Assembly (NCBI GenBank): GCA_002731275.1
Contig: PCBK01000131.1
Span: 1-63,236, forward strand
Length of the DNA stretch: 63,236 nucleotides
DNA from: Deltaproteobacteria bacterium
GTDB taxonomy: Bacteria; Myxococcota_C; UBA6777
Direction: 5' to 3'
The notes beneath the pieces are model-generated. The model saw only the letters and a list, made by a program, of their open reading frames with translations. It was not told the origin of the DNA and searched no databases. The position numbers and the translations under genes are program-made. Shown piece after piece: positions 9,215 to 13,501 of the stretch (within the stretch, counting starts at the first letter, position 1; each line of letters starts with the position of its first letter).

Positions 9215-9339
9215 TTCAGATTCCCTTTTGTGAACAGTCTACTTGATACAATACGACGCATCACATATCACCACAAAAAGGCAAGAAACTCTATCAGGTG
9301 ATCCCCCTCATTTAGGATAGGAAATCCCCCCTATTTTAA

Positions 9340-10005
9340 CTACATATCAGAAGAGACCAAACCAATACGAATGGCGTAACGAACCAAACCGGCGAGATTG
9401 TGAATGTCGAGTTTCTTCATCATGCGACCGCGGTGAGACTCGACGGTCTTGCTGCTGATGTGAAGTGTTTCGGCGATCTGTGGCCCCGAATAGCCCTCTG
9501 CAAGGAGCTGTAAGATCTCCCGCTCCCGATGGGTCAACTCGCCCTTTTGCTTTTTGTGGGTGGTTTGTGTGCCAGACTGCGCATCTTTCAGCAGGATCTT
9601 CGCGACCGCTGGACTAAAAAACGCTTCCCCTTCTGCAATCGCACGAATCGCCTTCACCAGATCGGAGAGTCCCGAACCCTTCAACAAAAAACCACTCGCC
9701 CCCGCACGTAAGACAGGGCGAACGTACTCTTCTCCGGCATGCATCGACAAGATCAGGACCTTCGCGTCGGGATGTATTTTTAACAATTGCTTTGTCGCAT
9801 CGACACCATTCAGACGAGGCATCGCCAGATCCATCACCACAACGTCAGGCTTGTGCTCTTCGACTTTTTGAACGCCCTCAAAACCATCAGCCGCTTCAGC
9901 CACCACCTCGATATCTTCTTGTCCCTCCAACAAAGCCCGCAATCCCTGACGCACAATCATGTGATCTTCGACCAATAACACCCGCAGCGTGGATTTTTTT
10001 TGCAT
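9340..10005 (-). CDS. NarL/LuxR-family response regulator
   Basis: An N-terminal receiver domain (E13-D14, phospho-acceptor D59 in VVVMDLAMP, conserved Lys near 109 in GFLLKGSG) is followed by a C-terminal LuxR-type helix-turn-helix (LTHREREILQLLAEG, KTVESHRGRMMKKL). It is the DNA-binding output of the histidine kinase encoded 47 bp upstream. The start is placed at the ATG at 10005 because AGAGAGG stands just before it; a longer frame up to 10038 lacks a better site. Targets are unknown; the TonB receptor immediately downstream is an obvious candidate. Confidence 0.93.
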   Translation of the reverse strand: MQKKSTLRVLLVEDHMIVRQGLRALLEGQEDIEVVAEAADGFEGVQKVEEHKPDVVVMDLAMPRLNGVDATKQLLKIHPDAKVLILSMHAGEEYVRPVLRAGASGFLLKGSGLSDLVKAIRAIAEGEAFFSPAVAKILLKDAQSGTQTTHKKQKGELTHREREILQLLAEGYSGPQIAETLHISSKTVESHRGRMMKKLDIHNLAGLVRYAIRIGLVSSDM

Positions 10006-10052
10006 ACCAACCTCTCTTCTCATACACAACATCGCCAAGCAGTGTAACGCCT

Positions 10053-11354
10053 TCAGAAGGGAAAAAACAAGTGTATCTGTGTCCCACCCCCTCGCTTTGA
10101 TGTCAATGAAAACTCTCCACCGAGCAACGCAACGCGCTCCCTCATCCCTCGAACCCCTCGATGTCCTCTCTTGACCTGTGCGACATCAAATCCGACGCCA
10201 TCGTCCGTAATCTCGATGTGCAGTGTGTCCTCCACGTCGTAGACACGCAACGTCACCTCGGAGGCGTCTGCATGTCGACTGATATTGGTGAACGCCTCCT
10301 GTACCAAACGATAACAAGCGTTCTCTGCCCCTTGGGATAACACCTCAGGTAACGCCTCCAGCTCCGTGTATACGTCGAGCTTTGAGCGCTCCGAAAGATC
10401 CTCACAAGCCCGCTCGAGCGCGACCTTCAGGCCAAAGTCGTCGAGCACAGAAGAGCTCAACATCATCACCGCGTGACGGATCTCTTGCAGTGTCTGATCG
10501 GTCATTGTGATCGTCTGTTCGACGATCTCTTCGACCCTCTTTGGCTGCGCCAATTGTTGGGGGATCAGTTGTAGATGGATGCGAATCGCAGTCAACGCCT
10601 GCCCTGCTGAGTCGTGTAGTTCCCGCGCGATGCCTCTCCGCTCCTCCTCTTGAAGGGTCATCATCTGGGCGGATAACAAACGCAATGAACGCTCTTTCTC
10701 TTGTAGCTCGTCATACGCCGTACTCAACTCAAGAGAGCGCGTCTTCACCTTCTCTTCGAGATCCAAGTTCAACTCTTCGAGGTGGCGTTGTGTGCCACGG
10801 AGTTCACCAAGCAACGAATCGATCTGACATTGCGCCCCCAGCACGACTCTCATGGGGAGCATATAGAGCAAAGAGGCCAACACGCTGCCCAATCCAAAAA
10901 ACGCCAACAGTAGAAAAAGTGTGTACCTTCGGACTGTGGTCATTGAGATCGCGACCCAGACCTCTCCGTGCTTGTGTTGGTCGAGTTTAATATCCGCTTT
11001 CGCCCACAATCCTTCCCGCAACGCGAGCTTTAGCTCCTGTGATGTGGAGATCCCTTGAAACTGATTTCTCTGCCGCCGAAGCACCTCCACAGCGAGGATA
11101 TCCTGCTGTTGTTGGATCTTGCGAAAGTGCTCGACGAGCTTGAGCGTGTCGTACCACCAAAGCACCGGTTGTTGTGCGGCTTGCTTTTCCGCCTTTCGGG
11201 CAAATTGTTGCGCGATCTGCGCGGCCTGTTTGTGAAGCTCGCGTGTCTGCACAAGAAAGTAGGCACACGGCGCGCCAAGAGAGACGAGCACCAGCAACAA
11301 CAAAGACAACGGAAACAAGCGTCGCGAGAGAACGCGCCCAAGAGGTGGATTCAT
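10053..11354 (-). CDS. NarX/DegS-type sensor histidine kinase (HisKA_3)
   Basis: 433 residues: transmembrane segments at about 14-35 and 144-166 flank a periplasmic region of about 105 residues, followed by a coiled coil (about 180-230), the HisKA_3 box with phospho-acceptor H247 (IARELHDSAGQ), the N-box (EAFTNISRHA), the G1 box (DDGVGFD) and the RGVRGMRERV helix. This architecture pairs with LuxR-type regulators such as the one downstream. The start ATG overlaps the stop of the binding-protein gene by 4 bp (ATGA), with GAGGAGG upstream, so translation is coupled. This suggests that the binding protein is the ligand-sensing partner of the periplasmic loop, which is an inference. Confidence 0.93.
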   Translation of the reverse strand: MNPPLGRVLSRRLFPLSLLLLVLVSLGAPCAYFLVQTRELHKQAAQIAQQFARKAEKQAAQQPVLWWYDTLKLVEHFRKIQQQQDILAVEVLRRQRNQFQGISTSQELKLALREGLWAKADIKLDQHKHGEVWVAISMTTVRRYTLFLLLAFFGLGSVLASLLYMLPMRVVLGAQCQIDSLLGELRGTQRHLEELNLDLEEKVKTRSLELSTAYDELQEKERSLRLLSAQMMTLQEEERRGIARELHDSAGQALTAIRIHLQLIPQQLAQPKRVEEIVEQTITMTDQTLQEIRHAVMMLSSSVLDDFGLKVALERACEDLSERSKLDVYTELEALPEVLSQGAENACYRLVQEAFTNISRHADASEVTLRVYDVEDTLHIEITDDGVGFDVAQVKRGHRGVRGMRERVALLGGEFSLTSKRGGGTQIHLFFPF

Positions 11355-12292
11355 CGACAGCCCTCCTCTCCGTCTCGTGAGATCGCAATATATCCGGCCC
11401 GACAGATCAGCTTTTGCCCTTCAGGAGAGTAGGTAAAGTCCAAAAATTCTTTCGCCCTACCAGAAGGTTGTACGCGGCTGACAAAGGACAACGGTTTGTA
11501 TAAGGCGTTCTTTTTGTGCAGATGGGCAGAGACGTCCTTCGCCAACGGAAAGATCCGCAAGGGAAGTGATTGAGAGACGATCGCCCCTTTGTCAAAAACC
11601 CCAATCGCTCCAGGCGTATACATCAACGCCTCCTGCATGTCCTGATCGCGGTACATCACCCGCCACAGTCCACGTCGATATGCAGCTCGATTCACACGGG
11701 CAAAGCCGGGGATACCACGCTCCAAGAGTCGATGTCCTGAGTCCCCTTTCTCCCTCTGAAAGACCACAACAGGAAGTCCGTTGGACCAACGCTTTGTGCG
11801 GCCTCCATACAACGACAAAAGAGAAGCTCGATCCAGCGCCTTCAAAGGAACTGATGGATGTGCTGCGAAGACGACGGAGACTCGTGCATATAAGAACGTT
11901 TGGAGCCCAAGCGCTCGCTCATTGGCTCTCAGGGCACGTGAGATCAAGCCGAGCCCAACAGCGCCATCGTTCACGGCTCTGATTCCCCCCTTTGAGCCGA
12001 TACTTCGATGAACCTTGCACCCAACACAAGAAGTGTGTGTACGCAAAAACCTTCGAAACAAAAGACGCGTGAGGGGTAAATTGCTTCCAGAGCCCGCGAG
12101 GGTCAATGTTGTCGGAGTCTGGCTTATTTGAGAGGGGGCGTTCACAGACGTAAAGGGTTCTTGGGCGAAAGGCGGACGCCATCCAGGTGTGTAGGTATAA
12201 ATAGCAAGCGCGCCGAGCACAAGAACGACCCCAACAGCGATCATCCAGCGGACTCTCCACCACATCGAATCGTATCTTGCGTCATGGCTCAC
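11351..12292 (-). CDS. Membrane-anchored PstS-like substrate-binding protein
   Basis: 313 residues with one hydrophobic N-terminal helix (about 15-35, no clear cleavage site) and a periplasmic PstS/PBP-like domain: GSGSNLPLTRLL, SIGSKGGIRAVNDG, GLISRAL, LLSLYGG, KGDSGHRLLE (compare DxSGT in PstS), PGAIGVFDKG and a C-terminal LDFTYSPEGQKLI. These proteins bind phosphate or similar oxyanions. There are no ABC permease or ATPase genes beside it. It sits instead between a DUF58 gene (6-bp gap) and the histidine kinase (4-bp overlap), which points to sensing rather than transport. The GTG at 12292 is preceded by GGTGAG; an ATG at 12265 is an alternative start. Confidence 0.8.
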   Translation of the reverse strand: MSHDARYDSMWWRVRWMIAVGVVLVLGALAIYTYTPGWRPPFAQEPFTSVNAPSQISQTPTTLTLAGSGSNLPLTRLLFRRFLRTHTSCVGCKVHRSIGSKGGIRAVNDGAVGLGLISRALRANERALGLQTFLYARVSVVFAAHPSVPLKALDRASLLSLYGGRTKRWSNGLPVVVFQREKGDSGHRLLERGIPGFARVNRAAYRRGLWRVMYRDQDMQEALMYTPGAIGVFDKGAIVSQSLPLRIFPLAKDVSAHLHKKNALYKPLSFVSRVQPSGRAKEFLDFTYSPEGQKLICRAGYIAISRDGEEGCR

Positions 12293-12298
12293 AACAGC

Positions 12299-13501
12299 TC
12301 ACCCATGAGCGCGTTTGCGACGCGCGTGAAAAAAGGCAAGCAACGCAGGCATGACGTCTTCGCCTGTCGAGACGTCGATATGTTCCATCTGAAGTTGCTT
12401 ACACACATCGGAGAATGCTTCTCTTCTCGCTCGATTGCTCTCCAAGTAGGTGCGCGTAAAAGCTGTCGAACTCATATCCAACGAGCAGACCTCACCAGTC
12501 TCCAGATCTTCAAATGTCCACACACCACCAGGTCCCACGTTCATGAGATACGTACCCATCACAGCGACAAGAAGCGCAGAAGACACGCCCACCCAGAGAT
12601 ACATCCCGCCCCAAAGGACACCGACCAAGGCAAACACCACGGCGAGCAGCCAAGAGAACCACATCGCGTTTTGATACAACGAAGAAGGTGTGGTTTCAGA
12701 GGTGTCGATCAGTTCGAGTTCTGTCTCGTCAAGCAGGGAGTGGTCTGTGTGGGGTAAAAAGACTTCGAGTGGATCGTGAACAGTGACAGCGACGATATCG
12801 TGTTTTCGCGCGAGCAAGCGCAGATTGGTCGTGTCCAGAGTGTAAAGAAAGTCCGAGACGACGAAGCCAATCGTGTGACGAGGAGCGGTCTGTTGCATAA
12901 ATTGTAGCGCCAGAGACAACCCACGTTCCGAACCTGACGAGCTTGATGGTGAACGATAACGCAACATGTCTTTGATCAGCCGCATGACGTGATTGCGTCC
13001 CTTTTTGGGCACGACAAACTTCTCGACGTCATCTCCAAAGATGATCAGACCGATGCGATCGTTGTTCTGTACAGCACTCAACGCAAGCAACATACAGATC
13101 TCTGCGCTGACCTCTCGCTTACTGCGGCCTTGTGTACCGAGATCCATCGAAGAAGACGCATCCCACAACAACATCACCGTGCGCTCGCGTTCCTCCATGA
13201 ATTGCTTGACATATGTCTCTCCCATCCGGGCCGAGACCTTCCAATCGATCCAACGAACTTCATCCCCAGGCTGGTACTGACGGTGCTCCAAAAAGGCCAT
13301 ACCGCGACCCTTGAAGGCTGATTGGTACTCACCAGCGAACAGATCTTGCACCTGTTTTTTGGCGACAATCTCAAGCCGTCGGATGGTCTCAGCGACATCG
13401 AACTCCTCTTCATCAGAAGAAGCAGCATCGAGTAAGCCGGCCTGTCCACCTCCAGAGAGATGATCGGACAGGTCTTCTTTTTTGCGTTGAAAAAACGCCA
13501 T
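12299..13501 (-). CDS. DUF58 (VWA-like) protein with an inserted pair of membrane helices
   Basis: Residues 57-250 carry a classic DUF58 core: GEYQSAFKGRG, YQPGDEVRWIDW, then a MIDAS-like D114-A-S-S-S-M, IGFVVSDF and VHDPLEVFLP. In ordinary members a short segment leads to the D-x-ETGE strand. Here about 75 residues are inserted, with two hydrophobic helices at about 279-299 and 301-321, before EDLETGEV resumes. DUF58 proteins usually act with MoxR AAA+ ATPases, but none is present here. The gene heads the operon with the binding protein, kinase and regulator. GAGGAG precedes the ATG. The membrane hairpin could tether the protein next to the kinase. Confidence 0.85.
   Translation of the reverse strand: MAFFQRKKEDLSDHLSGGGQAGLLDAASSDEEEFDVAETIRRLEIVAKKQVQDLFAGEYQSAFKGRGMAFLEHRQYQPGDEVRWIDWKVSARMGETYVKQFMEERERTVMLLWDASSSMDLGTQGRSKREVSAEICMLLALSAVQNNDRIGLIIFGDDVEKFVVPKKGRNHVMRLIKDMLRYRSPSSSSGSERGLSLALQFMQQTAPRHTIGFVVSDFLYTLDTTNLRLLARKHDIVAVTVHDPLEVFLPHTDHSLLDETELELIDTSETTPSSLYQNAMWFSWLLAVVFALVGVLWGGMYLWVGVSSALLVAVMGTYLMNVGPGGVWTFEDLETGEVCSLDMSSTAFTRTYLESNRARREAFSDVCKQLQMEHIDVSTGEDVMPALLAFFHARRKRAHG

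Follow-up and report, generated by a model that had tools for sequence, protein, structure and literature searches.

A run of minus-strand genes in a deltaproteobacterial contig probably encodes a three-component signalling system, in which a membrane-anchored, PstS-like binding protein (PBP) binds an anion and engages the periplasmic domain of a sensor histidine kinase (HK), and a NarL-type response regulator (RR) regulates the adjacent gene for a TonB-dependent outer-membrane receptor. The contig was analysed as a single window of 63,236 nucleotides (GenBank assembly GCA_002731275.1, contig PCBK01000131.1, positions 1 to 63,236 of the forward strand). The source genome comprises 10.75 Mb in 200 contigs, and its phylum is represented in the search set by five genomes, all of one family, which are titled Myxococcales or Deltaproteobacteria at NCBI.

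An earlier, sequence-only reading of the window had described the genes for a DUF58 protein, the PBP, the HK and the RR as one tight operon, forming an ‘undescribed’ sensory module whose output might include the TonB receptor. The coordinates bear out this arrangement. The five genes follow one another in the order DUF58, PBP, HK, RR and TonB receptor, all on the minus strand, with gaps of 6 bp (DUF58/PBP), -4 bp (PBP/HK, an ATGA overlap), 47 bp (HK/RR) and, as had also been claimed, 125 bp (RR/TonB receptor). No ABC transporter gene and no MoxR gene is found among the neighbouring open reading frames at the locus, in agreement with that reading. The NCBIfam assignments for the genes of the run are consistent with their Pfam names, which for the RR are Response_reg and GerE.

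The proposed mechanism can be laid out as a series of steps. The PBP would be tethered to the outer face of the inner membrane through its uncleaved N-terminal helix and, to judge from its predicted fold, would bind a small anionic ligand in a cleft of the PstS type. The conserved pairing of the two proteins, together with the domain swaps described below, suggests that the loaded or closed PBP may then contact the PAS/Cache-like periplasmic domain of the HK and alter its kinase activity, and the HK, by the standard chemistry of these domains, would phosphorylate the NarL-type RR. Finally, the gene neighbourhood points to control by the RR of transcription of the adjacent TonB receptor, which would probably import the sensed compound, or something that is scarce at the same time.

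Recurrence of the gene order in other genomes

Within the family, the PBP is present in two of the four relatives of the source genome, while the other two are without it. Both of these sister genomes harbour the PBP, HK and RR genes with the identical ATGA overlap, followed by an orthologous TonB receptor, and have no DUF58 gene at that place; identity with the proteins of the source genome amounts to 47-51% for the TonB receptors and about 55% for the RR.

Beyond the family, a contig scan with the single PBP as query returned no relatives, whereas a profile of three PBPs did recover them. That profile identified 30 loci in named genomes, mostly of Myxococcota (including the genera Nannocystis, Enhygromyxa, Plesiocystis, Paraliomyxa and Sandaracinus), along with single cases in Geobacter, Thermincola, Nitrospirota, a gammaproteobacterium and Solidesulfovibrio. 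With a profile of 26 PBP sequences, matches at E <= 1e-30 were obtained in 47 of 377 Myxococcota genomes.

After deduplication, and with a PBP score of at least 150 bits, the survey comprised 55 loci (designated here by L and a number). The gene directly after the PBP gene carries a shared sensor region in 52 of these, an RR gene comes next in 32, and a TonB receptor of the same family as that in the window lies nearby in 20. Nineteen of the receptors lie within 4 kb, as against one receptor of that family in 453 kb of farther flanking sequence. The adjacency of PBP, HK and RR exceeds chance; the placement of DUF58 does not. The four-gene order put forward by the sequence-only reading is thus retained in part, with PBP-HK-RR recurring across the survey and the full order, DUF58 included, found only in the source genome. 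The coordinates of the individual features are collected in Table 1.

Table 1. Positions of the features discussed, in window coordinates unless a locus number is given
Feature	Position	Strand	Remarks
DUF58 protein, 400 aa	12299-13501	minus	PF01882 1.1e-61; 6 bp upstream of PBP gene
Membrane-anchored PstS-like PBP, 313 aa	11351-12292	minus	GTG start; PF12849 (PBP_like_2) 3.1e-13
PBP anchor helix, residues about 5-34	12191-12280	minus	PBP domain is residues 60-310
PBP altered anion loop R-E-K-G-D-S-G-H, residues 180-187	11732-11755	minus	
Sensor HK, 433 aa	10053-11354	minus	HisKA_3 238-301, HATPase_c 344-432
HK extracytoplasmic sensor domain, residues 33-138	10941-11258	minus	Single PAS/Cache-like topology
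NarL/LuxR-type RR, 221 aa from ATG	9340-10005 (10038 if TTG start)	minus	PF00072 3.4e-29, PF00196 1.9e-20
Intergenic region before TonB receptor	9215-9339	minus	Likely site of regulated promoter
TonB-dependent outer-membrane receptor, 752 aa	6956-9214	minus	PF07715 (Plug) and PF00593 (barrel)
16-bp palindrome TACGTA-N4-TACGTA	L026:6354-6370, L027:6728-6744		Upstream of TonB receptor
Sister-clade PBP loci	L083:4999-7116, L084:10753-12918, L085:10740-12590, L100		GGDEF (L083), GGDEF-EAL (L085)
Cys-rich lipoprotein loci	L072, L089, L090, L141, L143, L152, L157, L159, L160, L163		

A PstS-derived clade of probable sensor binding proteins

The membrane anchoring of the PBP, as asserted by the earlier reading, is upheld by a single N-terminal hydrophobic helix and by a search for a lipobox that found none. 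Most kinase-linked PBPs share this form: they have one N-terminal helix, lack a lipobox and carry a linker of about 30 residues. Those linked to GGDEF proteins resemble secreted or lipoprotein forms. The AlphaFold2 model of the PBP (pLDDT 90) superimposes on phosphate-bound PstS (4gd5) with a Z score of 24.2 and a root-mean-square deviation of 3.3 over 232 residues. At the level of sequence, its only meaningful matches are to PF12849 and to the PstS models TIGR02136 and TIGR00975, with none to a PhnD model, and its score against the curated TIGR02136 model (46.2 bits) falls below the cut-off of 206.6.

A maximum-likelihood tree of 54 sensor-PBP rows and 20 others (outgroup PBPs and PstS, either ABC-linked or generic) sets the two groups apart with support of 100/97. 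The sensor clade retains the GSGSN, IGS, SR and RE elements, while the SGT loop of transport PstS is changed to (D/E)S, in the form GDS(S/G), with an acid at residue 184 in all 26 of the aligned members; the transport-linked PBP of L166 keeps SGT. Compared with the PstS subunit of PstSCAB (4gd5, 4q8r and 1twy), the PBP of the window is therefore similar in its fold and in three of four anion-binding elements (GSxS, GS and SR/R), but differs in having no permease or ATPase, in its uncleaved membrane anchor and in the altered loop. The predicted fold favours a phosphate-like or other small anion as the ligand, and the loop favours a changed specificity.

These features bear upon a rather unlikely alternative, namely that the system is a phosphate sensor standing in for PhoR and PstSCAB, with the PBP binding inorganic phosphate and the kinase reporting starvation. 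The structures closest to the PBP model are indeed those of phosphate-bound PstS, and the gene content of the family is compatible with this view: PstB scores above its curated cut-off in none of the five family genomes (compared with 13 of 14 controls), no other PF12849 protein above cut-off is found in the source genome, and Na/Pi cotransporters are present instead in all five (Pit only in the source genome). However, the sensor clade has replaced the SGT loop, the adjacent TonB receptor is no phosphate porin, and two relatives have neither the Pst nor the PBP system. In addition, 13 of 30 Myxococcota genomes with a sensor PBP also contain a strong PstB match (E <= 1e-80), so that the system does not merely substitute for Pst. 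The signalling proteins also differ from those of PhoR-PhoB, which pair a HisKA kinase with an OmpR-type regulator, in contrast to the HisKA_3 kinase and LuxR/NarL regulator at this locus.

It is highly improbable that the PBP is a transport subunit for an unlinked permease, and that its place beside the kinase reflects co-regulation only. Binding proteins can serve unlinked permeases, and the fold is that of transport PstS; nevertheless, no PstB above cut-off is present in the family, the anchored form and the altered loop are conserved, and ABC transporter genes lie downstream of none of the 55 sensor-clade PBPs, as against three of seven lower-scoring PBPs (none of which has the sensor partner). 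The sequence-only reading had recognised that a location beside pst-type transporters in relatives would argue against a sensory module; no sensor-clade PBP adjoins such a transporter.

The kinase sensor domain and its exchanged outputs

The HK contains two transmembrane (TM) helices, at residues of about 17-35 and 145-163, with a PAS-like extracytoplasmic domain between them. In the structural model, the first TM helix continues into a long helix, followed by a single PAS/Cache-like domain (helix 66-81 and strands 86-93, 99-101, 115-124 and 127-137) and then by the second TM helix. Residues that are invariant or nearly invariant in this domain include W66, Y68, K72 and W117, the first three of which form a W66-x-Y68...K72 motif. 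A Pfam search of the sensor domain returned no family above cut-off.

A hidden Markov model (HMM) constructed from the kinase N-termini only nonetheless detects the same domain, at E values of 4e-35 to 7e-33, on proteins encoded downstream of sister-clade PBPs. These lie directly 3' of the PBP in L083 (Geobacter, GGDEF), L084 and L085 (Thermincola, GGDEF-EAL). In L081, L083, L084 and L085 the match to the partner is confined to the sensor part, and the two partners that were checked (L083 and L085) are cyclic di-GMP (c-di-GMP) enzymes. Because the same sensor domain is found both on histidine kinases and on c-di-GMP proteins, the pair of PBP and sensor domain is conserved while the output domain changes, and this conservation is the strongest indication so far of an action of the PBP on the sensor domain. 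The proposal that the binding protein presents a ligand to the kinase consequently gains support, both from the conserved adjacency of the genes and from the shared sensor domain with its swapped outputs. The correlation of PBP distances with those of the kinase, over 19 pairs, is 0.85 for the sensor part and 0.80 for the catalytic part, values that are weakly suggestive of co-evolution between the two proteins.

A broader formulation is offered only tentatively, and on present evidence may well prove too wide: that the PBP and its partner constitute a transferable ‘cassette’, in which a PstS-derived, non-transporting binding protein and an unnamed periplasmic domain feed into a HisKA_3/NarL pair that controls a matched TonB receptor (often with a new lipoprotein family) in Myxococcota-type bacteria, and into c-di-GMP enzymes in Geobacter and Thermincola, with a ligand other than inorganic phosphate.

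As a separate observation, the N-terminus of the HK in one relative (genome G001, L027:7472-8929) carries, ahead of the kinase, short in-frame repeat units of the MSxKxG type.

The adjacent TonB receptor

The sequence-only reading had named the TonB receptor as a possible output, and this now appears likely, given the recurrence of the same receptor family in the survey. Identity within this family is 26-32% between the group of the source genome and a group from Polyangia, and 44-67% within Polyangia.

The receptor also invites the suggestion that the system senses iron, haem or a tetrapyrrole-related compound that the receptor imports. Its best-matching models are of the TonB-hemin type, its nearest chain in the PDB is the haem receptor PhuR, and hemF (encoding oxygen-dependent coproporphyrinogen oxidase) immediately precedes the receptor gene in L067, L068, L088/L138 and L143 and the PBP gene in L076. 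Yet the score against the TIGR01785 haem receptor model, at 179.3 bits, is far below its cut-off of 316.85; hemF is not found beside the operons of the source genome, L066 or L069; and the PstS-type cleft is small and anion-specific. TonB-dependent haem receptors have a conserved histidine between their FRAP and NPNL boxes. No histidine is present between the FRAP and NPNL-like boxes of the receptor described here (FRAPNLQESAFIGDAGNNFEIPNPDL) or of the relatives compared. In view of the low score and the absent motif histidine, an identity of the receptor as a haem receptor was rejected, and the sensing of iron or haem by the system is accorded a low probability.

In both sister genomes, a perfect palindrome (CTACGTA-N4-TACGTA, expected 0.01-0.02 times per locus) is located between the RR and the TonB receptor, where it represents a candidate RR site only. 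As an operator shared among the loci it was rejected, being without a match in the window and unconvincing in the other regions upstream of TonB receptors. A sigma-70 promoter scan gave no minus-strand site and fewer matches than shuffled sequences; a terminator scan gave more sites than in shuffles, most of them inside genes, and none in the gap between RR and receptor.

The absence of the palindrome from the window weighs against the three-component system proposed here, as do several aspects of the survey. The HMM for the TonB receptor was trained on 9 of its 20 positive loci, so that 11 positives are independent. Thirty-five of the 55 loci have no receptor of this family nearby (some of the contigs are short), and the output target may therefore differ between lineages. 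Lastly, the PBP has no adjacent kinase at two Enhygromyxa loci (L071:9386-10981 and L076:9962-10984), the second of which is on a contig that stops 2.3 kb downstream of the PBP.

Several additional genes were observed in the vicinity of these loci. A family of Cys-rich lipoproteins, with the motifs RREDxHYP and KEAxTC...DCDSxxAYYTG, recurs beside the TonB receptor, the RR or the PBP. It has no meaningful Pfam match, and a search for it in the family of the source genome, run without a positive control, found no member. L070 (12946-13926), L149 and L156, three loci at which no TonB receptor is present, encode a small barrel predicted to reside in the outer membrane, its N-terminus resembling a TonB box, close to the RR or immediately after it. 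In relative G001, the receptor N-terminus (L027:4210-6519) carries in-frame KQAKKAS repeat units ahead of the plug, and BatD/BatE-like genes (L027:3-4084) are convergent to the receptor gene.

Relation to known sensory systems

The stimulation of kinases and c-di-GMP enzymes by binding proteins is an accepted general mechanism, and about 10 characterised cases exist in which a binding protein has been shown experimentally to act on a sensor kinase (PMC9602780). The present system resembles those of the AioXS, TorTS and BctCE type in the placement of the PBP gene beside that of a transmembrane receptor (in the 52 of 55 loci noted above) and in an HK whose extracytoplasmic domain lies between two TM helices. 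The closest three-gene analogues are the AioXSR, ArxXSR and ArrXSR operons for arsenic oxyanions (PMC5908839), which likewise contain no transporter; however, AioX is PhnD-like whereas the PBP is of the PF12849/PstS type, the kinase and regulator described here are of the HisKA_3 and NarL/LuxR types, and the neighbouring target gene encodes a TonB receptor rather than an arsenic oxidoreductase. In BctC-BctE, a binding protein reports to the periplasmic domain of a kinase and the response increases uptake of the compound sensed (PMC9602780), but BctC also serves the BctCBA transporter, whereas the system in the window has no linked inner-membrane transporter and its uptake gene encodes an outer-membrane receptor. 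For the sister loci of Geobacter and Thermincola (L083 and L085), the analogue is NspS-MbaA, where a binding protein acts on a GGDEF-EAL receptor (PMC9993111, PMC8967002); NspS binds polyamines and belongs to a different family, and the partner at the locus in the window is a histidine kinase.

The description of the module as ‘undescribed’ accordingly requires division: binding-protein-stimulated kinases are already known, while no published account of the PstS-derived sensor clade or of its sensor domain was found within the literature searched. The novelty lies in this clade, which has an unnamed partner domain of its own and recurrently neighbours a TonB receptor. PstS is the best-known of binding proteins, and one clade of it appears to have left transport for dedicated sensing, apparently of a nutrient. 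The recurring partner domain and its swapped outputs provide a natural experiment for mapping the interface between binding protein and receptor, and the system offers a practical way of finding the substrate of an unassigned TonB-receptor family that is widespread in Myxococcota.

The DUF58 neighbour

The sequence-only reading had also assigned a role to the DUF58 protein, as a working member that links to or modulates the complex of PBP and kinase. Such a role would fit the 6-bp gap, the common strand, a MIDAS-like DxSxS motif and the hydrophobic hairpin at the C-terminus, but DUF58 as a module member was rejected on the gene-neighbourhood data, and a functional coupling is considered very unlikely. 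The two sister genomes have no DUF58 gene at this position, and none adjoins the PBP at any other sensor-PBP locus; the only other survey locus with a DUF58 gene is L165, where it is MoxR-linked, on the opposite strand and 6.4 kb away. Orthologues are present in all four relatives (two of which have no PBP) at unrelated places, beside a Ser/Thr kinase and unrelated TonB genes (L058 and L059), a deacetylase-like gene (L060) or other company (L061). These unrelated contexts, and the absence from the survey, indicate that DUF58 is a local neighbour.

Although the protein belongs to PF01882, like its counterparts in MoxR-DUF58-Bat operons, it has no adjoining MoxR or Bat genes, and a search of the region around the locus gave no MoxR match. 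The source genome carries a full MoxR-DUF58-Bat operon on a different contig (L062, G000:C174:28000-45455), and the DUF58 gene described here is a paralogue without MoxR. The DUF58 gene is probably cotranscribed with that of the PBP, and from its genomic distribution it appears to have been added to the transcription unit in this lineage and to play no part in the working of the system.

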